38,801 bases of DNA, from positions 1 through 38,801 of the forward strand of contig CALGVD010000073.1 of NCBI GenBank assembly GCA_937920275.1, in the 5' to 3' direction. The notes below the pieces were generated by a model, which did no database searches, was not told the origin of the DNA, and saw only the letters and a list, made by a program, of their open reading frames with translations. Each line of letters opens with the position of its first letter. Position 1 is the stretch's first letter. The stretch comes from an uncultured Pseudomonadota bacterium. Lineage in GTDB: Bacteria > Pseudomonadota > Gammaproteobacteria > Steroidobacterales > Steroidobacteraceae. The translations under genes were made by a program, and so were the position numbers. Of the stretch, positions 4,190 to 38,801 are shown piece by piece.

Positions 4190-7323
<3,134 letters not shown>

Positions 7324-7336
7324 CCGTAGGTCCGTC

Positions 7337-7367
7337 CGCGTCGAGCGCGCGTCAGCGCTCGAACGCG
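7337..7367 (-). terminator. Hairpin downstream of the parvulin gene
   Basis: Arms CGCGTCGAGCGC (7337-7348) and GCGCTCGA-A-CGCG (7355-7367) form a 12-bp stem with one bulged A and a 6-base loop. It lies 6 bases beyond the stop of the left-facing parvulin gene and 13 bases beyond the ligA hairpin. There is no T-run. It probably ends or protects the left-facing transcript. Confidence 0.45.
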
Positions 7368-7373
7368 TGGGTC

Positions 7374-8279
7374 TCACTTGGTGGCTGCGGCGTCCTTCGC
7401 GACATCCTTGACCGCTTCCTTGGCGGCGCCGGTGGCCGCGGCAGCGGCGGCGGCCGTCTCTTCGACGCGCTCGATCTTGGCAGCCTTGACGAGCTCCTCG
7501 GTGTACGCCTCGAGTTTCTTGGCGCGCACCGCCGGCTCGATCTGCTGCTTGACCTGCTCGAACGGCGGCGGCGGGGACGTGTCGCGCACGTCATCCAGCC
7601 GGATGATGTGCCAACCGAACTGCGAACGAACGGGAGCGGCCGTGGTCTCGCCCTTCTTGAGCTTCAGGAGTGCATCCGCGAACGGCGCGACATAGCGGTT
7701 GGCGGGCGACCAGCCGAGATCGCCGCCGTCCTTCGAGGACGGGTCGAGCGATTGACGGGCGAGCGTCTCGAACCGTTCGCCGGCCTTGAGGCGAGCGAGG
7801 ATCTCGTTGGCGAACGTCTCGTTCTGCAACAGGATGTGCCGGACGCTGTATTCCGAGCGCGGCATCTTGGCGACCAACGCGTCGTATTCGGCGCGCAGTT
7901 CCTGATCGGTCGGGTTTTTGTCCTTCAGGTAGGCGTCAGCGACCGCGCGCTGCAGCACGTTGATGCGCGCGAGCTCGATGCTGGCGGCGGCTTCGCCCTG
8001 CTTGTCGAGGCCTTGCTTCTGACCTTCGGCGGCAAGGACCTGCATGTCGATCATCGCGTCGATCGCTTCTTTGCGGCTCTCGGGGTCGAGCTCGCTCGCG
8101 GGACGGCCTGCGGCCGCCTTCACGAAGGTGTCGAGCATGGTCTCGGTGATCTTTTTGCCGTTGACGATGACGATCGTCTTGGCACCGGGGTCGGCGGTGG
8201 CGGCGGCCTTGTCGGCGGGCGCGCAGGCGGCGAAGGTGAGGGCGAGGGCCCCGGCGGTGAGGAGGCGGGCGAGGGTCAT
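7374..8279 (-). CDS. Periplasmic parvulin-type peptidyl-prolyl isomerase lipoprotein (SurA/PrsA/PpiC-like)
   Basis: This is a predicted cis-trans prolyl isomerase that assists folding of exported proteins. The 301-residue product begins with a signal peptide ending in a lipobox (LTFAAC, Cys19), so it should be a lipid-anchored periplasmic protein. A SurA_N-like helical region (about 35-140) is followed by one parvulin domain (about 144-231) with the conserved YSVRHILL, DGGDLGW and SQFGWHIIRLDD segments. The C-terminal 40 residues are mostly Ala, Lys and Glu, a low-complexity tail not part of the catalytic fold. It lies 32 bases downstream of bolA on the same strand, with GAGAG before its ATG, so the two are probably co-transcribed. 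Confidence 0.9.
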   Translation of the reverse strand: MTLARLLTAGALALTFAACAPADKAAATADPGAKTIVIVNGKKITETMLDTFVKAAAGRPASELDPESRKEAIDAMIDMQVLAAEGQKQGLDKQGEAAASIELARINVLQRAVADAYLKDKNPTDQELRAEYDALVAKMPRSEYSVRHILLQNETFANEILARLKAGERFETLARQSLDPSSKDGGDLGWSPANRYVAPFADALLKLKKGETTAAPVRSQFGWHIIRLDDVRDTSPPPPFEQVKQQIEPAVRAKKLEAYTEELVKAAKIERVEETAAAAAAATGAAKEAVKDVAKDAAATK

Positions 8280-30916: not shown

Positions 30917-31042
30917 GGTCGGGGTCGGCGGGCGGCACCGGCCGTCCAGCCGGCTGAACCGTCCGCATTGATTGCGGCACCATTGTCTGCCCAAGATGAG
31001 CGTCGCGGATTCGTCCCGCAAGGTTCATCTGGGAGAAGACCA

Positions 31043-31675
31043 ATGAGTACACACCATATCGGCGTGCAGATGAAGGTCCAGGACGGCAACGAGCAGGCCT
31101 ACCTCGACTGGTTGGCCGATGACGCGCCGGTGCTTGCCAAGGTCTTCGGTCGCGTCGGCATCCATTCCAAGACTGTGCTGATGAACGGGTCGTACATCAT
31201 CGCCCATTACGGCGCCGATTCGCCGGCGGCAGTGGGGGAAGCCTTCCAGACACCGGAAGCGGTCGCGATGCTGACCGGGCGATTGGGTGCGCTGCTCGAT
31301 CCCTCGTTCGCGCCGATCTTCTACACGGAGGAACTGCGCTGGACCAAGCCGGTAGCAGGTCCCCTGCAGCATGCAGCGATCGCGCTCAACCTTAAGCCGG
31401 GTCAGGAAGCCAACTATCTCGATTGGGTGCGCAACCGCGCCAAGGCACAGTTCAACGATCTTTGGGGTCGCTTCGACATCCGCGTCAAGGAAGTGCTGGT
31501 GAGCGGTTCGAACGTCATCTCGTTCTACGAGATCAAGGATCCGTCGCGGATCCTGCCGAGCTTCGGCGAGCCTGAGGCCATCGCTGCCATGCAGTCGGAC
31601 CTCGGTACGATGCTCGACATCGCGGCCGACAAGCCGCCGGCGTTCTTCACCGAAGCGTTCCACTGGCACGACTGA
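31043..31675 (+). CDS. Internally duplicated small protein (two alpha-beta repeats), function unknown
   Basis: The 210-residue product consists of two similar halves of about 100 residues. Half 1 (7-96) has QMKVQDGNEQAYLDWLADDA, GSYIIAHYGAD and PIFYTEELRW. Half 2 (105-206) has ALNLKPGQEANYLDWVRNRA, GSNVISFYEIKD and PAFFTEAFHW. The pattern (strand, loop, YLDW helix, two strands, helix, FFTE strand) suggests a ferredoxin-like or dimeric alpha-beta-barrel fold, so one chain would make a pseudo-dimer. There is no signal peptide. GGGAG 7 bases upstream supports the start. It converges on the lipoyl-VOC gene with 27 bases between. I do not recognise a named family. Confidence 0.75.
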   Translation: MSTHHIGVQMKVQDGNEQAYLDWLADDAPVLAKVFGRVGIHSKTVLMNGSYIIAHYGADSPAAVGEAFQTPEAVAMLTGRLGALLDPSFAPIFYTEELRWTKPVAGPLQHAAIALNLKPGQEANYLDWVRNRAKAQFNDLWGRFDIRVKEVLVSGSNVISFYEIKDPSRILPSFGEPEAIAAMQSDLGTMLDIAADKPPAFFTEAFHWHD

Positions 31676-31702: not shown

Positions 31703-32464
31703 CTACTTGAGCGTCGCCGTCAGCGAGCTCCGGTCCCAGTTCGCGGAGGCATCTCGCATCACGCCCGTGAGCTGCGTGAGCACGAACTGCTTCTCCACGA
31801 TGTGCAGCAGCGTGCCGATCGAGGCCCGGGCATCCACGAACGCGAAGCGTGCGCCGAAGGAGTAGGTGCCGCGCGTCACGTACTCGTGGCCCGCGGCGGC
31901 CTCTGCGGCCAGAGCCGCATCCAGGTTCTCCACCATCAAAGATGGCAGCAGCGTCCCGACGCCCGCTTCGCGCCAAGGGCTCGCCGTGTCGTCGTGCAGT
32001 TCGACGAGTTCCAGCAGCACCTCGCCCGCGTAGCCCGTCGCGACCGATATCGACGGTGCTGCGTCGCTGCCGCGATGCTGGTAATCCTTGAAGGCGAGGG
32101 CGGGAAAGGTGAAGAAGGGCCCTGCGCCGGTCGCACGCGCCCAGGAGTGCATCGCCGACCCGAGCGACGGGACGACCTGCACCAGGCGCTGCAGACTGGC
32201 GCGCATTTCGGTGACGGTCGCCGCTGCGACCGCTTCGCCGATCTCGCCGATGACCTCGCCGACCTTGTAGGTGGTGCTGGCCACACCCGTCTGCCGGAGC
32301 ACGCCCGCTGCAGGCGATTCGACGTCCATGGTCGACTTCTCGAGTTCGAGCGTGTAGAGCGGTTCACCTTCGGCGACGGTGGCGCCGTCCGCGACCAGCC
32401 ATGCTACGAGGGTGCCCTCACGCATGGACACAGCCGCCTTCGGGATACGCAGGGTGGTCGGCAT
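31703..32464 (-). CDS. Lipoyl domain fused to a VOC/glyoxalase-like domain (no E2 acyltransferase core)
   Basis: The 253-residue product starts with a complete biotinyl/lipoyl domain (1-80) with the lipoylation site Lys43 in LELEKSTMDVESPAAG. The remainder (about 86-235) resembles a VOC/glyoxalase fold: GPFFTFPALAFKDYQHRG, SVATGYAGEVLLELVELHDD, SPWREAG, ENLDAALAAEAAAGHEYV, RFAFVDARASIGTLLHIVE. The usual VOC metal ligands (His in the first strand, His before the ENLD helix, Glu near the end) do not appear to be kept. There is no E1/E3-binding domain and no HxxxDG catalytic core of E2. It lies 13 bases downstream of the E1 fusion gene. By analogy with AcoC-type proteins (lipoyl plus alpha/beta-hydrolase), it is likely the swinging-arm partner of that E1, with an atypical acceptor domain. 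Confidence 0.75.
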   Translation of the reverse strand: MPTTLRIPKAAVSMREGTLVAWLVADGATVAEGEPLYTLELEKSTMDVESPAAGVLRQTGVASTTYKVGEVIGEIGEAVAAATVTEMRASLQRLVQVVPSLGSAMHSWARATGAGPFFTFPALAFKDYQHRGSDAAPSISVATGYAGEVLLELVELHDDTASPWREAGVGTLLPSLMVENLDAALAAEAAAGHEYVTRGTYSFGARFAFVDARASIGTLLHIVEKQFVLTQLTGVMRDASANWDRSSLTATLK

Positions 32465-32477
32465 CTGCGTCTCGGTC

Positions 32478-34505
32478 TCAACGCTTCAGCATCGCGCGCG
32501 CGGCGTCGACCACACGGCCCGCCTGCGGGAAGTGCAGGTTCTCGAGCCCCGCAGTGAATGGCACCGGCGTATAACGCGCGCCCACGCGCGCCACCGGCGC
32601 CGCAAGCTGCCCGTGCAGGCGCGTGTGGATGATGCTGGCGATCTCGCCGCCGAAACCGCCGAACTCGGTGGCCGCATGCAGGACGATGGCTCGCTTGGTA
32701 CGGCCGACGCTCTCGAGGATGGCCGACACGTCGAGCGGGACCACGGTGCGCAGGTCGAGCACCTCCGCGTCGACGCCTTCCTTGGACAGCGTCTCGGCGG
32801 CAGCCAGCGCCTCGCCCACCGTCCAGCCGTAGGTGATGATGGTCACGTCCTTGCCATGGCGTTTGATGTCGGCTTGGCCGAGCGGGATCCGGTAGTCGCC
32901 CTCGGGCACGGGGCCCGGCGCGAAGTAGGCGCGCATCGACTCGAAGAACACCACCGGATCCGGGTCATGGATCGCCGACAGCAGCAGACCCTTCGCCTCC
33001 GCCGGCGTGCTGGGATAGACGACCTTGATGCCCGGCATGTGCGCAAGCCAAGCCTCGAGCGACTGTGAGTGCTGCGCGCCGAAGCTGCCGACGAAGCCTG
33101 CTGTGAGCGTGCGGATGACGAGCGGTACGCTGGTCTTGCCGCCCGACATGTAGCGCAGCTTGGCGGCGTGGTTGCCCACCTGGTCCATGCAGACCATCAG
33201 GAAGTCGTTGATCATGATCTCTGCGACCGGCTTCATGCCGGCCATCGCCGCACCGATGGCCGCGCCCACGATCGCCTGCTCGGCGATCGGCGTCGGACGC
33301 ACACGGTCGCGGCCGAACGTCGTGGAGAGCCCGTAGGTGGTCTTCACCACGCCGCCCGCCGGATCTGCGATGTCTTCGCCGAGCAGGAACACATCCTTGT
33401 CGGACTCGAGCGCGATGGCCAGCGCCTCGTTGACCGCCTGACCGAAGGTCATCATGCGATCCGACTTGGGCTGGTACTGGACCGCGGCCTTGGGCTGCGC
33501 GGTCGCGATCACCTGGTCGGGGATCAGCGTCTGGTCGGCGAACACGTCGGTGTAGAGCTCGCTGTCGGCGGGTGCCGGTGCCTTACGCGCGTACTCGCTC
33601 GCCGCATCGACCTCATGACGGGTCGCGGTTTCGATCTCCTTGAGCGACGAATCGGTCGCGATGCCGTCATCGATCAGTCGCTGGCGGAAGCGGGCTACCG
33701 GGGCGACCGCCTTGGCGGTGGCGAGCGCGGCGGCATCCATGTGTCCCTCATCGCTGCCGAACGAGTGGCCCTGCAGTCGATGGCAGACGGCTTCGATGAG
33801 CGTCGGACCCTGGCCCGAACGCGCGCGGGCGACGGCGGACTTGGCGACCTCATGCACGGCGACCGGGTCGGTGCCGTCGACGCGCACGCCGGCCATCTCA
33901 TAGGCTGCGGCGCGCTTCGAGAAATCCTTGGTGAGGGTGTATTCGTCGAGTGCGGTGTACTCAGCGTACTGATTGTTCTGGCAGACGAAGATGACCGGTA
34001 GCTTCCACACGGCCGCGAGGTTCAGCGCCTCGTGGAACGCGCCGATGCTGGTCGCGCCGTCTCCGAAGTTGCAGATGCAGACGCGGTCGGTGCCGCGCAA
34101 CTGTTCAGCGAGTGCGAGACCGTTGGCGATGGGCAGCCCCGCTCCCACGATGCCCGTGGTGAGCATGAGGCCCGAGGTAGGGTCCGACAGATGCATCGGC
34201 CCGCCCTTGCCTTTGCAGGTGCCCGACATCTTGCCGTAGAGCTCAGCGAAGATGGCGTCGAGCGGCGTGCCCTTCGCTACGATGTCGTGGATGCCGCGGT
34301 AGGTGGTGGCCACGAAATCGTCGGGACGCAGCGCAGCACTGATGCCGGCGGAGATCGCCTCCTGGCCGCCGACCGGGTAGTACTGGAACATGATCTCGCC
34401 CGCGCTGAGTCCGCGGGTGACCGCCTTGTCACTCTCGTTGATGCGCACCATGGTGCGGTAGAGAGCGAGCATGGCTGCGTTGGTGAGGGCGGTGGCCGTG
34501 GTCAT
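32478..34505 (-). CDS. Fused E1 alpha-beta subunit of a thiamine-dependent 2-oxoacid/acetoin-dehydrogenase-type complex
   Basis: The 675-residue product joins an E1 alpha-like half (about 1-325) and an E1 beta-like half (about 345-675). The alpha half has YYPVGGQEAISAGISAALRP, the TPP motif GDG (148-150)...NN (177-178) and HRLQGHSFGSDEG with the phosphorylation-loop-type His247-Ser248. The beta half has LLGEDIADPAGGVVKTT, the TPP-contact Glu409 in PIAEQAIVG, His479 in GAQHSQSLEAW and the C-terminal DLRTVVPLD. Both halves keep their expected catalytic elements, so decarboxylation of a 2-oxo or 2-hydroxyketone substrate is plausible. The alpha half most resembles acetoin dehydrogenase AcoA-type enzymes, but the substrate is unknown. 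GGAG lies 8 bases before the ATG. It is followed by the lipoyl-VOC gene; E3 is not in the window. Confidence 0.88.
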   Translation of the reverse strand: MTTATALTNAAMLALYRTMVRINESDKAVTRGLSAGEIMFQYYPVGGQEAISAGISAALRPDDFVATTYRGIHDIVAKGTPLDAIFAELYGKMSGTCKGKGGPMHLSDPTSGLMLTTGIVGAGLPIANGLALAEQLRGTDRVCICNFGDGATSIGAFHEALNLAAVWKLPVIFVCQNNQYAEYTALDEYTLTKDFSKRAAAYEMAGVRVDGTDPVAVHEVAKSAVARARSGQGPTLIEAVCHRLQGHSFGSDEGHMDAAALATAKAVAPVARFRQRLIDDGIATDSSLKEIETATRHEVDAASEYARKAPAPADSELYTDVFADQTLIPDQVIATAQPKAAVQYQPKSDRMMTFGQAVNEALAIALESDKDVFLLGEDIADPAGGVVKTTYGLSTTFGRDRVRPTPIAEQAIVGAAIGAAMAGMKPVAEIMINDFLMVCMDQVGNHAAKLRYMSGGKTSVPLVIRTLTAGFVGSFGAQHSQSLEAWLAHMPGIKVVYPSTPAEAKGLLLSAIHDPDPVVFFESMRAYFAPGPVPEGDYRIPLGQADIKRHGKDVTIITYGWTVGEALAAAETLSKEGVDAEVLDLRTVVPLDVSAILESVGRTKRAIVLHAATEFGGFGGEIASIIHTRLHGQLAAPVARVGARYTPVPFTAGLENLHFPQAGRVVDAARAMLKR

Positions 34506-34640: not shown

Positions 34641-35438
34641 TCATCCGCGTGCCGGTGCGACCAGGTGAGTGGTGATGGCCGAGCGGATCGCGCGGGCGAT
34701 GGTGCGCTCGTTGCGGCGGATCCGGTCGCTCAACCCGCCCACTCCGAGGACGAGGACATTGCCATCGCTGGCCGGGGGCAGGGCCATCGAGATGGCGCCC
34801 GTGTCGGGGAAGAGGCTCGCGAAGGTCACGGAATAGCCGGTACTGCGCACCTGCGATAGGCTCTCGAGCGTGCGGTCGATCGCTTGGCGGACGACCCGCG
34901 TGCGCGCCATGCCGCGCGCGGATTCCGCCAAACGTTCGACTTCGGCCGGTGGGCGTGTCGCGAGGAAGGCCGCGCCGACGCTGGTTCCGAATAGCGGCGC
35001 GACGGTACCCTCATCCATCTTGAGCGCGATGAAAAAACTGCCTGGCAGTACGCGGATGAATCGCATCGCCTGTCCGGCGCGCATCGAGAGCGTGACCGTC
35101 TCGCCGGTGACGTCGTGCACCTCTTGCAGCATCGAGGCGGCATCGCCCATACCGTACAGCGCCGCCGGGATCCACGCGCCGAGTGAGGTGACGCGTAGCG
35201 ACGGGAAATAATGCATGGTGTCCGGGTCGAAGGACAGGTAGCCGAGGTTGGTCAGGTACTTGAGCAGCACGTTGGTGCTCGATTTCGGGTAGTCGAGAAG
35301 ACGGCCGATCTCGGAGGCCGAAAGCGGCTTGCGCACATTGCCGAGCAGCTCGAGCACCTCTAGCACGCGGCCCGCCGACTTGACGGCGCCGCCAGCGATC
35401 GCGCTGCGGTCGTCCTCTTGCTGGGGCATCGAGGCCAT
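34641..35438 (-). CDS. IclR-family transcriptional regulator
   Basis: The 265-residue product has an N-terminal winged helix-turn-helix (about 18-80: SAGRVLEVLELLGNVRKPLSASEIGRLLDYPKSSTNVLLKYLTNLGYL and following) and a C-terminal IclR effector-binding (GAF-like) domain (about 95-260) with LPGSFFIALKMDEGTVAPLFGTSVGAAFLA. IclR regulators sense small metabolites and often control catabolic operons and themselves. It is divergent from the amidohydrolase gene and lies upstream, on the same strand, of the E1 fusion operon. GAGGAG precedes the ATG. Its own promoter carries a perfect palindrome in the spacer, which points to autorepression. The effector is unknown. Confidence 0.92.
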   Translation of the reverse strand: MASMPQQEDDRSAIAGGAVKSAGRVLEVLELLGNVRKPLSASEIGRLLDYPKSSTNVLLKYLTNLGYLSFDPDTMHYFPSLRVTSLGAWIPAALYGMGDAASMLQEVHDVTGETVTLSMRAGQAMRFIRVLPGSFFIALKMDEGTVAPLFGTSVGAAFLATRPPAEVERLAESARGMARTRVVRQAIDRTLESLSQVRSTGYSVTFASLFPDTGAISMALPPASDGNVLVLGVGGLSDRIRRNERTIARAIRSAITTHLVAPARG

Positions 35439-35471: not shown

Positions 35472-35500
35472 AATATAGGTTCACAAACGTGAACTGTAAA
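35472..35500 (-). promoter_or_regulatory. iclR promoter (TTTACA-17-TATATT)
   Basis: On the minus strand TTTACA (35495-35500) and TATATT (35472-35477), each matching consensus at 5 of 6 positions, have the ideal 17-base spacing. The start is expected near 35465, giving a leader of about 27 bases that contains the ribosome-binding site. The spacer is almost exactly the palindrome at 35479-35494. Confidence 0.7.
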
Positions 35501-35515
35501 TGCAAACCTGTGAAC
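35479..35515. promoter_or_regulatory. IclR-type operator: palindrome plus a third half-site
   Basis: GTTCACAAACGTGAAC (35479-35494) is a perfect 6-4-6 inverted repeat. A third GTGAAC lies at 35510-35515, 21 bases (two helical turns) after the second half-site in direct orientation. A palindrome plus one direct repeat is the layout known for the IclR-family regulators PcaU and PobR of Acinetobacter. The palindrome occupies the spacer of the iclR promoter; the third half-site points towards the amidohydrolase gene. Confidence 0.65.
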
Positions 35516-35536
35516 GATGGAGTAGGGTCAAATACT

Positions 35537-36451
35537 ATGAGCGGCGCCATTGATATCGTCTGCAATCTTTTCGATCGCACCGCAGTGCGCCTGGGGCAGA
35601 CCGGGCTCGACGACACCTTCAAAGCGCAGGTGCGCCTCGACCGGCGGTACTGGGGCGGCATGCCCGTCAGCCATTACCTTCGCAAGATGGACCGCGCGGG
35701 CATCGAGCGGTCGCTGTTGATCGCGGTCCGCGCGGGCGACATGAATGTGCGTGGCTCCTTCGAACTGCCGATGGACCGCATCGCCAAGGTCTGCAATCGT
35801 TGGCCTGACCGCTTCTCCGGTCTCGCCGGTGTCGATCCTTTCCGCGGCATGAAGGGGCTCGCCGACCTCACGCACGCGGTCCGCGACCTCGGCTTCGTCG
35901 GGGCGCATCTGTATCCGCACTGGTTCGGCCTCGCGCCCGATCATGCCAAGTACTACCCGTACTACGCCAAGTGCGCGGAACTCGGCGTGCCCATCATGAT
36001 GCAGGTCGGCCACAACCTCGTGTACTCGCGCGAGCGCCGGCTGCCGAGCGTCGGCCGTCCGATCACACTCGACCAGGTCGCTATCGATTTCCCAGAGCTC
36101 ACGCTCATCGGCATCCACATCGGCGTACCTTGGACCGACGAGATGATCTCGATGTGCTGGAAGCACGAGAATGTATTCACGGCGGGCGATGCCTACGCAC
36201 CGAAGCACTGGCCGGCGTCCTATGTGCAATACATGAACACCTACGGTCGACAGAAGGTGCTGTTCGGTACCGACTGGCCCGTCATCGACCCCGAGCGCGC
36301 CATGCGCGAGGTGAAGGAGCTCGGCCTACGACCTGAATCCGAGAGCTCATTGCTGCGCGACAACGCCCTTCGGGTCTTCAAGCTGCCCGGCTACAAAGCG
36401 CTGCTCGCGAAGGAAGCGCGCGCGATGATCGTGCGGAGCAAGGTCAAGTGA
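35537..36451 (+). CDS. Amidohydrolase-2 family protein lacking the HxH metal motif
   Basis: The 304-residue TIM-barrel protein belongs to the amidohydrolase-2 (ACMSD/resorcylate decarboxylase-like) family. It shows VGAHLYPHWFG, MQVGHNL (His159), LIGIHIGVPW (His194) and VLFGTDWPV (Asp246), which match the later metal-site positions. The first-strand motif, normally I-D-x-H-x-H, reads IDIVCN (5-10), so both early His ligands are Val8 and Asn10. Family members act as hydrolases or non-oxidative decarboxylases in aromatic catabolism; the activity here is uncertain. The ATG at 35537 keeps the first strand and has AGGG 9 bases upstream; an in-frame GTG at 35489 would start inside the operator. The stop overlaps the next gene (GTGA). 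Confidence 0.85.
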   Translation: MSGAIDIVCNLFDRTAVRLGQTGLDDTFKAQVRLDRRYWGGMPVSHYLRKMDRAGIERSLLIAVRAGDMNVRGSFELPMDRIAKVCNRWPDRFSGLAGVDPFRGMKGLADLTHAVRDLGFVGAHLYPHWFGLAPDHAKYYPYYAKCAELGVPIMMQVGHNLVYSRERRLPSVGRPITLDQVAIDFPELTLIGIHIGVPWTDEMISMCWKHENVFTAGDAYAPKHWPASYVQYMNTYGRQKVLFGTDWPVIDPERAMREVKELGLRPESESSLLRDNALRVFKLPGYKALLAKEARAMIVRSKVK

Positions 36452-38049
36452 GCGGCCTGTTCCGTCCGATGCGGATCTCTGATGGCTTGCATGCGGTGGG
36501 TCTGCGGGAGCCTGGACGGCCTGCGCTGCGCTGCGAGGGCAGGGAGTTCACCTACGGCGAATTGCACCAGCGCGTGCAGCGCCTTGCCGGAGCGGCGTTG
36601 CGTGAGATCGGCATCAAGCTCGGGGATCGTGTGGCGATGCTCGCGCCCAACTGCGCGGAGTACCCCGAGGTGCTCTGCGGTTTCAGCGACGCGGGCGGCA
36701 TCGTCGTCACGCTGAATCCGCGCAGCCCCGCGACAGAGATCGCGGCGGCATGCCGAGATTGCACGCCCTCGGTCATGGTGGTGCACCCTTCTTTGGAAAC
36801 GGTGGCGCGTGAGGCGATCGCGCTCGGTCTCGGCGATCGCATGGGCAGGCTGATCGTGCTCGGTCCCGCCTACGAACGCTGGATCGAAGGGCACGCGCCG
36901 GCCGCGGAAGCCGAACTGCCCCGTTTCGACGAGACGCATCCGTTCACTCTCGTTTACAGCTCGGGCACCACCGGCCAGCCGAAGGGCATCGTCATCTCGC
37001 ACCGGTCCCGGGCGTTGACCTTCCACGGAATGGCCATGGAGTATGGCTGCTACGGCCCAGACGACCGCTTCCTTGCGCTCGCGCCGATGTCCCACGGGGC
37101 CGGCTTTGCGTTCGCCATGTGCACGCTCTATTTCGGCGGCTTCGTCGAGATTGCTGTGCGCTTCGACCCCGCGCAGGTCCTGGAGCGCCTCGCAGATGGC
37201 GCGTTCACCGGTGTCTTCATGGTCCCGACGCATTTTCAGGCTATCTTCGCGCTGCCGTCCGAGACGCTTGCCCAGCGTAAGGGTACGGCACGCTCGTTGC
37301 GTACCATCATCTCCAACGCCGCTGCACTGCCGCAGGCGGTGAAGGAACGTATCGTCGAGTACTTCGGTGACGGCCTGCTCCATGAGACCTATGGATCCAC
37401 CGAGGCCGGCATCGTCACCAACATCAGGCCGCGGGACCAGCTGCGTACGCGCCAGTCGGTCGGCCGCGCCTTCGCACTCAACGAGATCCGGCTGCTCGCG
37501 CCAGACGGAAGCGAGGTGCCGGACGGTGAGGTGGGCGAACTTTTCTCGCGTTCGCCGTATCTCTTCGACGGCTACTGGAACCGACCGGAATGGACCGCCG
37601 AGTGCAGCCGAGACGGCGGTTGGGTCAGCGCCGGCGACCTCGCGCGCCGCGACGCCGAGGGTTTCCTGTACATCGTCGACCGCAGGAAGGACATGGTCGT
37701 CACCGGCGGGTTCAACGTCTATCCGCGCGAGGTGGAGATCGTGCTCGAGCAGCACCCCGCGGTGCGTGAGGCCTGTGTGGTCGGCGTCCCCGACGAGCAC
37801 TGGGGCGAGCGCGTGCGTGGTTTTGTGGTGCTCCGTGAGGCAGCCGAGGCCGGCCAGGTGCTCGCGGAGGACATCGCGTCCTTCAGCCGCGAGCGTCTCG
37901 CCCGCTACAAAGCGCCGCGCGAGATAGCGTTCATCGACGTCGTTCCGCGCAACATCGGCGGCAAGGTGCTGAAGCGGGAGTTGCGCGACGGCCACCATCT
38001 TTTTTTCGCTGTCCACAACCATGAACCAAAGGTTCAGCGGACTGCTTGA
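36448..38049 (+). CDS. AMP-forming acyl/aryl-CoA ligase (ANL superfamily)
   Basis: It activates a carboxylic acid with ATP to an acyl-AMP and then to a CoA thioester. The 533-residue product has A3 YSSGTTGQPKG, A5 YGSTEAG, A7 SAGDLA, A8 DRRKDMVVTGGFNVYPREVE and the catalytic A10 Lys506 in NIGGKVLK. All core motifs are intact. The tail after A10 is about 27 residues. The substrate is not readable from the sequence; the family includes fatty-acyl and aromatic-acid ligases. The GTG start at 36448 overlaps the amidohydrolase stop by 4 bases, so the two are translationally coupled and probably act in one pathway under the adjacent IclR regulator. Confidence 0.93.
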   Translation: MSGLFRPMRISDGLHAVGLREPGRPALRCEGREFTYGELHQRVQRLAGAALREIGIKLGDRVAMLAPNCAEYPEVLCGFSDAGGIVVTLNPRSPATEIAAACRDCTPSVMVVHPSLETVAREAIALGLGDRMGRLIVLGPAYERWIEGHAPAAEAELPRFDETHPFTLVYSSGTTGQPKGIVISHRSRALTFHGMAMEYGCYGPDDRFLALAPMSHGAGFAFAMCTLYFGGFVEIAVRFDPAQVLERLADGAFTGVFMVPTHFQAIFALPSETLAQRKGTARSLRTIISNAAALPQAVKERIVEYFGDGLLHETYGSTEAGIVTNIRPRDQLRTRQSVGRAFALNEIRLLAPDGSEVPDGEVGELFSRSPYLFDGYWNRPEWTAECSRDGGWVSAGDLARRDAEGFLYIVDRRKDMVVTGGFNVYPREVEIVLEQHPAVREACVVGVPDEHWGERVRGFVVLREAAEAGQVLAEDIASFSRERLARYKAPREIAFIDVVPRNIGGKVLKRELRDGHHLFFAVHNHEPKVQRTA

Positions 38050-38127
38050 CTTGGTGCGAGGGGTAGCAAGAGACTCCTCGTGAGGGATGTAGCACGCGGC
38101 CAACGCCGCATCTGGAGGGATCTGATC

Positions 38128-38801
38128 ATGGAACACCGCAAGATTTCCCGGCTCGTCGCCGCAACCGTCGCTTCGATCATCGCCTCCGGGCCAGCGCTGG
38201 CCGCTGAGACGGAGGTCCTCGAGGAGGTGGTCGTCACTGCCGAGAAGCGCTCCAGCACCGTGCAGGACACGCCGCTCTCGATCGCCGCCTTCTCCGGTGA
38301 TGAACTGGAGGCCGCGGGTATCGCGTCCACGGACGGGTTGTCCAACCTCACGCCGGGTCTCGTGATCCAGAAGGAGGTCATCGGCAAGGTGGTGATCCGC
38401 GGCGTCGGCACCGAGAACTTCTCGGTCGGCAGCGACCCCGGCGTCGCCATCCACCAGGACGGTGTCTATCTCGCCCGGTCTTCGGTTGCGGTGTTCGACT
38501 TCTTCGACACCGAGCGAGTCGAGGTGCTACGCGGGCCGCAGGGTACCCTCTACGGCCGTAACGCGACCGGCGGCGTGATCAACCTCATCTCGCGTAAACC
38601 CGAGGACGAGTTCGGCGGCTACGCCAAGCTCGACGTCGGCAATTACGGCAAGATGCGCGTCGAGGGTGCGCTGAACGCGCCGTTCAGCGATAGCGTGGCA
38701 GGTCGCCTGTCGGTGCTCTGGGCGCAGCGGGACGGCTACACCGAGAACAAGTTCGCGACCGCCAAAGCCCGCGATAACGATGAGCTCGACAACCAGGACC
38801 T
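38128..38801 (+). CDS. TonB-dependent outer-membrane receptor, N-terminal part (runs off the right edge)
   Basis: Only the first 224 residues are present. A signal peptide (about 1-26, ending GPALAAE) is followed by a TonB-box-like segment EEVVVTAEKR (32-41). The plug domain follows with VIRGVGTENF, DGVYLARS, DFFDTERVEVLRGPQGTLYGRNATGGVINLIS, and then the start of the barrel. This is the class of receptor common in Steroidobacterales and Sphingomonadales for import of siderophores, plant or aromatic compounds and steroids. GGAGG (38114-38118) 9 bases before the ATG supports the start. It lies 78 bases after the CoA ligase in the same direction, so it may import the substrate of this locus. 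Confidence 0.92.
   Translation, partial: MEHRKISRLVAATVASIIASGPALAAETEVLEEVVVTAEKRSSTVQDTPLSIAAFSGDELEAAGIASTDGLSNLTPGLVIQKEVIGKVVIRGVGTENFSVGSDPGVAIHQDGVYLARSSVAVFDFFDTERVEVLRGPQGTLYGRNATGGVINLISRKPEDEFGGYAKLDVGNYGKMRVEGALNAPFSDSVAGRLSVLWAQRDGYTENKFATAKARDNDELDNQD

Follow-up and report, generated by a model that had tools for sequence, protein, structure and literature searches.

We describe here a two-gene unit from an uncultured member of the Steroidobacteraceae, in which a fused E1 dehydrogenase component is encoded next to a protein that joins a lipoyl domain to a domain of the VOC superfamily. The lipoyl-VOC fusion is real and recurrent, and it is a new form of the E1-lipoyl theme. The unit lies in a window of 38,801 nt (the whole stretch of DNA analysed) on contig CALGVD010000073.1 of assembly GCA_937920275.1, hereafter genome G000. 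A preliminary description of this DNA had paired a fused E1 with a lipoyl-VOC open reading frame 13 bases further on; the pairing is confirmed, and both frames were found exactly where they had been placed:

32478..34505, minus strand: fused E1 alpha-beta of the thiamine diphosphate (ThDP)-dependent 2-oxoacid/acetoin dehydrogenase type, 675 amino acids (aa) (Pfam and structure alignments)
32465..32477, minus strand: gap of 13 bases between the E1 stop and the lipoyl-VOC start (sequence)
31703..32464, minus strand: lipoyl-VOC fusion protein, 253 aa (open reading frame, Pfam)
32240..32455, minus strand: lipoyl domain, residues 4-75 (Biotin_lipoyl, PF00364, 1e-12, over the curated cut-off)
32336..32338, minus strand: Lys43, presumed lipoylation site, in ELEKSTMDV (sequence)
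31742..32194, minus strand: VOC domain, residues 91-241, with a fold like that of methylmalonyl-coenzyme A (CoA) epimerase (PF13669, AlphaFold2 model, Foldseek to 3gm5, 6bu2 and 3oa4)

The E1 protein matches the Pfam models E1_dh (7.7e-78), Transket_pyr (1.3e-38) and Transketolase_C (4.4e-34). Its residues 5-316 align with the human pyruvate dehydrogenase (PDH) E1 alpha chain of 3exf, and residues 351-672 with the PDH E1 beta chain of 3duf. In these alignments GDG...NN, GHS and the beta-chain HS, which we take to be the catalytic motifs of E1, are all present. The equivalent of Lys43 in the partner protein is kept in 24 of 24 relatives from a selected, non-exhaustive list of our own choosing. 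The lipoyl half is known from sequence only, its block means of the predicted local distance difference test (pLDDT) being below 50 for residues 1-90 of the AlphaFold2 model. BPL_LplA_LipB has two matches in the window genome, which may include a biotin ligase.

The VOC half is confidently modelled. Glyoxalase_4 (PF13669) matches residues 97-208 at 8.4e-07, over the curated cut-off, and the AlphaFold2 model of the window protein, built from an 8-row alignment, has pLDDT block means of 80-95 over residues 91-250. The best Foldseek structures for the model are methylmalonyl-CoA epimerases (3gm5, E 2.7e-9; 6bu2, 1.8e-7; 3oa4, 1.3e-6), and a homologue from another genus (locus L044) gave the same outcome with both programs. 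Residues ~91-241 are thus predicted to adopt a methylmalonyl-CoA-epimerase-like fold and not that of an E2 core. The proposal of a VOC/glyoxalase-like second domain holds, and the contrary possibility, that residues 86-235 form a divergent E2 core, is ruled out by the Foldseek top matches.

The fusion is found in more than one genome. Among 24 genomes of the window genus, five have a match at E <= 1e-20, and in four of them (G000, G010, G011 and G018) lipoyl and VOC share one open frame, which is whole in G000 and G011 and reaches the contig end near the C-terminus in G010 and G018; the fifth match (G021) is cut within the lipoyl domain. A pattern scan of genome contigs gave 52 pattern matches and 10 relatives, including these genus members (L041-L043 for G011, G010 and G018; L048 for G021). 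Another relative, L044, comes from G1167, a genome of a different genus in the same family, where lipoyl and VOC again form one open frame and the protein is 40% identical to the window protein over its whole length. In L045 the two domains are encoded by two overlapping genes, and in L046, L047, L049 and L050 the match is confined to the lipoyl domain. In L045/L070 the separate VOC gene and the lipoyl gene lie in different frames and share 8 bases; given a possible sequencing frameshift, this may truly be a fusion too. An artefact of one genome is thereby ruled out, and the preliminary suggestion to look for the same two-domain order beside E1 elsewhere was borne out by the four genus genomes and G1167.

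The E1 family itself is uncommon. At E <= 1e-150 it was detected in 15 of 396 genomes of the order, in 3 of 398 of the phylum and, of 369 genomes of the class, in the window genome alone; at E <= 1e-180 it was detected in 13 of 217 genomes of the Steroidobacteraceae. In some of these cases alpha and beta are encoded by two separate genes. In the E1 tree, L044 falls into a starred group of four rows (L044, L068, L071 and L073), away from the window genus. This placement hints at two separate fusions without proving them; the VOC tree is weak at deep forks.

Recurrent adjacency and fusion show that the VOC protein is a real partner of the E1-lipoyl pair. Apart from the five genomes with fusions (G000, G010, G011, G018 and G1167), a free VOC gene adjoins the pair in three more, after the lipoyl gene in G374 (L070), before E1 in G376 (contig C85, L071) and divergent from E1 in G120 (L069). 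When 11 chosen genomes with such an E1 were searched with the L045 VOC (E <= 1e-8), homologues were found in eight, at 12 places, six of which are at the fused E1. Five of the 11 (G018, G374, G376, G120 and G1167) have a single VOC homologue, sited at the E1 locus; two of the genomes are 67% and 89% complete, and 'single copy' is there a lower bound. A rough estimate of chance co-occurrence is 3.6e-14 for five of six with four adjacent slots and 1.8e-7 for three of four with ten slots; it takes a genome to have 2800 genes and treats the genomes as independent, which related genomes are not.

Two of the 12 places are a pair on G000 contig C18, ~4 kb from a different E1 alpha/beta pair. At this locus (L022, 10181-11315 and 15242-17250) two VOC genes stand in tandem, and an AMP ligase and a pyrroloquinoline quinone-type protein are encoded between them and the second E1 pair. 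All four VOC loci outside the genus (L044, L069, L070 and L071) have a GMC oxidoreductase nearby; the scan covered loci with VOC, and an Azospirillum plasmid locus also has one annotated. In three of them the oxidoreductase is accompanied by a partner of 169-188 aa that has no Pfam match (L044, 7781-9909; L070, 2725-4830; L071, 2754-4846).

The VOC half of the window protein fails to show the four-residue metal site of its superfamily. We assigned the ligand positions by aligning the sequences with the L070 VOC and, by way of it, with the epimerases, and not from a metal-bound structure:

32186..32188, minus strand: R93, at metal-ligand position 1 of the VOC, where the other VOC rows have H, Q or E (alignment)
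32009..32011, minus strand: E152, second ligand position, kept (alignment)
31946..31951, minus strand: L172-L173, replacing the HH/QH ligand pair (alignment)
31802..31804, minus strand: H221, replacing the fourth ligand, Glu (alignment)

All four genus fusions have lost three of the four inferred positions (1, 3 and 4), carrying R, E, L/A/I and H/Q/M at the four sites. In all of the other 18 VOC rows, position 1 is H, Q or E, positions 2 and 4 are both E, and the HH/QH pair has H as its second residue. These rows are a selection (15 from other genera plus L022a, L022b and L018 from the window genus), which takes in 8 of 39 plasmid records with a match, mostly VOC-annotated, and excludes L017, L019 and L021 as near copies of the L022 pair. 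The fused G1167 protein retains H, E, HH and E, and the G374 VOC likewise retains all ligand positions. The alignment thus shows that the metal site was lost in the window genus.

Despite this loss, the VOC of the genus fusions looks to be under purifying selection. Ratios of nonsynonymous to synonymous substitution rates (dN/dS, Nei-Gojobori) for five genus pairs are 0.15-0.37 for VOC, 0.05-0.16 for E1 and 0.07-0.26 for the lipoyl domain, and they are rough, as dS is near saturation (0.9 to 1.7 for VOC and E1 in pairs with the window). These values bear on the possibility that the fusion is fortuitous, one of the VOC genes often present in catabolic clusters having happened to lie downstream of the lipoyl gene and to be joined to it by read-through, so that the fused domain is now decaying and contributes nothing to E1 catalysis. 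Similar VOC genes do occur in unrelated plasmid clusters, the ligands are lost, and the VOC half evolves faster than E1. However, dN/dS is well under 1, the frame is open in four species-level genomes, and in genomes that have just one VOC homologue this lies repeatedly at the E1 locus. We consider a fortuitous fusion very improbable.

With the metal site lost in the window genus, a catalytic role of VOC is the less likely alternative in this lineage, and the window VOC is most likely non-catalytic. The preliminary idea that VOC passes an acyl or aldehyde group to an unusual acceptor is not supported for the window genome, whose VOC has lost three of the four inferred metal-ligand positions; such a transfer may occur in G1167 and G374, in which the aligned VOC ligands are all kept. 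A VOC that is catalytic on the lipoyl-bound group would epimerise or isomerise the S-acyl-dihydrolipoyl thioester before release, in the window genus without the usual metal. The closest solved relatives are indeed epimerases of an acyl-CoA thioester, the fused G1167 protein has its ligands in place, and fusion to the arm would give proximity. But ligands 1, 3 and 4 are missing in every genus fusion, and the chemistry of the VOC superfamily is so diverse that the nearest structure does not fix the reaction. Such catalysis seems unlikely to us. To the same degree we doubt that a lipoyl-tethered VOC isomerase or epimerase replaces the acyltransferase, a scheme in which the G1167 protein would represent the active type and the window protein a metal-free derivative.

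The E1-lipoyl pair is part of a wider split-E2 arrangement. A lipoyl gene directly follows E1 or E1beta in nine further genomes (G025, G038, G143, G288, G361, G374, G376, G120 and G1166) and in five of the plasmid records examined (Diaphorobacter, Azospirillum, two Paraburkholderia and Streptomyces). The lipoyl protein of the relatives has 76-80 aa, and some relatives also have a free E2 core. Free cores, of 248-275 residues and matching PF00198 alone, were found on the Diaphorobacter plasmid and the two Paraburkholderia plasmids, where they directly follow the lipoyl gene, and in G374 (contig C144) and G288 (contig C55). In G374 the core is on a contig other than that of E1; within this stretch (L088, 6075-10175) it is flanked by an ADC-family gene on one side and, on the other, by an AMP ligase with 60% identity to the window enzyme.

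The E1-lipoyl pair of the window was correctly described as having neither a peripheral subunit-binding domain (PSBD) nor an E2 core in its own cluster: the 253-aa protein has no match to E3_binding or 2-oxoacid_dh at E <= 0.1 (Pfam), and when five E2 cores were used as tblastn queries (E <= 1e-5), nothing was matched in the window or in L031, L032, L033 and L044. The same search gave a 34% match in Sphingobium L083. The claim that E2 cores are absent therefore stands for the window lineage and some others and falls for the kind as a whole, since some split-E2 members keep a free core. Genome G000 has four E2 cores, each sharing a frame with its own lipoyl match, and no free core. One of these E2s (L023, G000 contig C10, 7891-9138), the one among the four that was scanned for E3_binding, combines lipoyl, E3_binding and core domains, and its 15 kb contig bears no E1 match; this orphan E2 could serve either E1.

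The reading that we put first, and judge to have about an even chance of being right, is that the unit belongs to a catabolic dehydrogenase for a 2-oxoacid or an acyloin, with a split E2 and with a VOC partner acquired by its lipoyl protein. The fused E1 would decarboxylate (or cleave) a pathway intermediate with ThDP and, by analogy with the chemistry of its family, pass the acyl group reductively to the lipoyl arm at Lys43. From there, the group would most likely be moved to CoA by an E2 core in trans; in the window genome, the resident E2s with their own lipoyl domains may be used for this transfer. The metal-intact VOCs of G1167 and G374 may be isomerase- or epimerase-type enzymes acting on the E1 substrate or the acyl thioester, and the window-genus VOC would most likely serve the lipoyl arm for docking or dimerisation, without catalysis.

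Several observations weigh against this reading. The lipoyl half has low confidence in both AlphaFold models (window and L044), and the selection ratios are rough, as said above. In G120 (a single contig, 95% complete) the only E2 core belongs to a 553-residue E2 that carries E3_binding and two lipoyl stretches of its own, so that a core acting in trans cannot be taken for granted in that genome. The Sphingobium/Rhodococcus plasmid loci L030 (with an L083-type E1), L081 and L084 have no lipoyl gene directly after E1beta. The only VOC homologue of G143 and all three of G025 lie elsewhere in the genome than the fused E1. The VOC partner is not obligatory, as the fetched stretches of loci L034, L036, L050, L068 and L072-L076 and of nine plasmid E1/lipoyl loci (L027-L030 and L080-L084), several of them on short contigs, have no VOC match (E <= 1e-3). 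Finally, the AMP ligase near E1 would fit the release of a free acid as a further possibility.

On the Rhodococcus sp. ZPP plasmid (L081, 7944-14178), two VOC-annotated genes lie within ~4 kb of E1 alpha/beta, and the stretch has no annotated lipoyl gene; neither VOC-annotated gene matches the VOC set at E <= 1e-3.

The genes around the pair are the following:

34641..35438, minus strand: IclR-family regulator, upstream of E1 (PF09339, PF01614; homologue beside E1 in L031, L032, L033, L035, L044 and L072)
35489..36451, plus strand: amidohydrolase (Amidohydro_2), divergent, start codon uncertain (PF04909; same place in L031 and L032, ~4 kb from E1 in L072)
36448..38049, plus strand: AMP-forming acyl-CoA ligase (PF00501; same place in L031, L032 and L035, also in L072)
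38080..38799, plus strand: TonB-dependent receptor, cut by the window end (PF07715, Plug)
30968..31675, plus strand: protein of 235 aa whose two halves look alike by eye; its gene converges on lipoyl-VOC and has an uncertain start (open reading frame)

The order IclR/E1/lipoyl-VOC plus amidohydrolase/AMP ligase is conserved in L031 and L032; no amidohydrolase or AMP ligase match was found within the 6.4 kb contig of L033. In relatives the loci also contain genes for a Rieske oxygenase and for FAD-binding, ADC, DUF1330 and MMPL-type proteins. As judged from gene content, this setting points to the breakdown of an imported organic compound. The 235-aa protein has no Pfam or NCBIfam match, and a 43% homologue lies ~2.5 kb from E1 in L068. 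At that locus the E1-lipoyl pair is also adjoined by a receptor resembling the window TonB receptor by eye, and a protein with a Tat-like start that is glyoxalase-like by eye is encoded nearby (6649-7629).

AMP ligases are common in catabolic clusters. Their presence here allows a scheme with no acyltransferase, in which the acyl-lipoyl group is hydrolysed (or E1 acts as an acid-forming oxidase) and the neighbouring ligase forms the CoA ester. In the window, L031, L032, L035 and L072 a ligase is no more than a few kb away from E1; in Azospirillum, where no match to an E2 core was obtained, the ligase gene is the one immediately following the lipoyl gene, and in Streptomyces it comes ~1.2 kb further on. 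G120, moreover, has no spare E2 core. This route, however, spends ATP though a thioester is already at hand, the frequency of such ligases in catabolic clusters lessens the weight of their proximity, and in G374 the ligase stands beside a free E2 core, so that ligase and core are not alternatives. It is an improbable route in our estimate.

An acyltransferase is the usual partner of the lipoyl arm. Repeated linkage of the arm to VOC, with the metal site complete in some forms and lost in others, would give this textbook machine a further chemistry or docking mode, and E1 with lipoyl-VOC makes a directly testable protein pair; the small lipoyl proteins of these E1 clusters mark catabolic pathways. 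The preliminary description had called a VOC fusion to a lipoyl domain unfamiliar, and our literature search agrees, as the titles and abstract openings covered contained no lipoyl-VOC or lipoyl-glyoxalase protein and no account of small lipoyl proteins or E1-lipoyl clusters of this kind.

Among known systems, a VOC gene near a decarboxylation step is provided by the edc estradiol cluster of Novosphingobium tardaugens, where EGO55_13575 lies between the ring-opening and decarboxylation (EdcC) genes (PMC7793797). The likeness is one of gene position alone, with no sequence comparison; EdcC belongs to the indolepyruvate ferredoxin oxidoreductase family, and the word 'lipoyl' is absent from the main text of that paper (PMC7793797). 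The methylmalonyl-CoA epimerases 3gm5, 6bu2, 6wf6 and 1jc4 share the fold of residues ~91-241, but at 12-19% identity, and the window VOC differs in being fused to a lipoyl domain and in the change of three of four ligand positions. The Diaphorobacter and Paraburkholderia plasmid clusters (E1alpha-E1beta-lipoyl-E2core) also have a small lipoyl protein directly after E1beta; their E1 is unfused, their E2 core is free, and no VOC match at E <= 1e-3 was found in the fetched stretches. With PDH and the other 2-oxoacid dehydrogenase complexes of alpha2beta2 E1, the window unit shares the E1 alpha and beta domains, which align, and an E2-type lipoyl domain with its acceptor Lys, whereas here the E1 subunits are fused and the lipoyl domain is unattached to a PSBD and acyltransferase core. 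Acetoin dehydrogenase consists of AcoA, AcoB and AcoC, the last joining a lipoyl domain to an alpha/beta-hydrolase. Its E2 model is the best NCBIfam match of the window lipoyl half (57 bits against a cut-off of 307), but the window protein is not of the AcoC type: a VOC domain stands where AcoC has its hydrolase.

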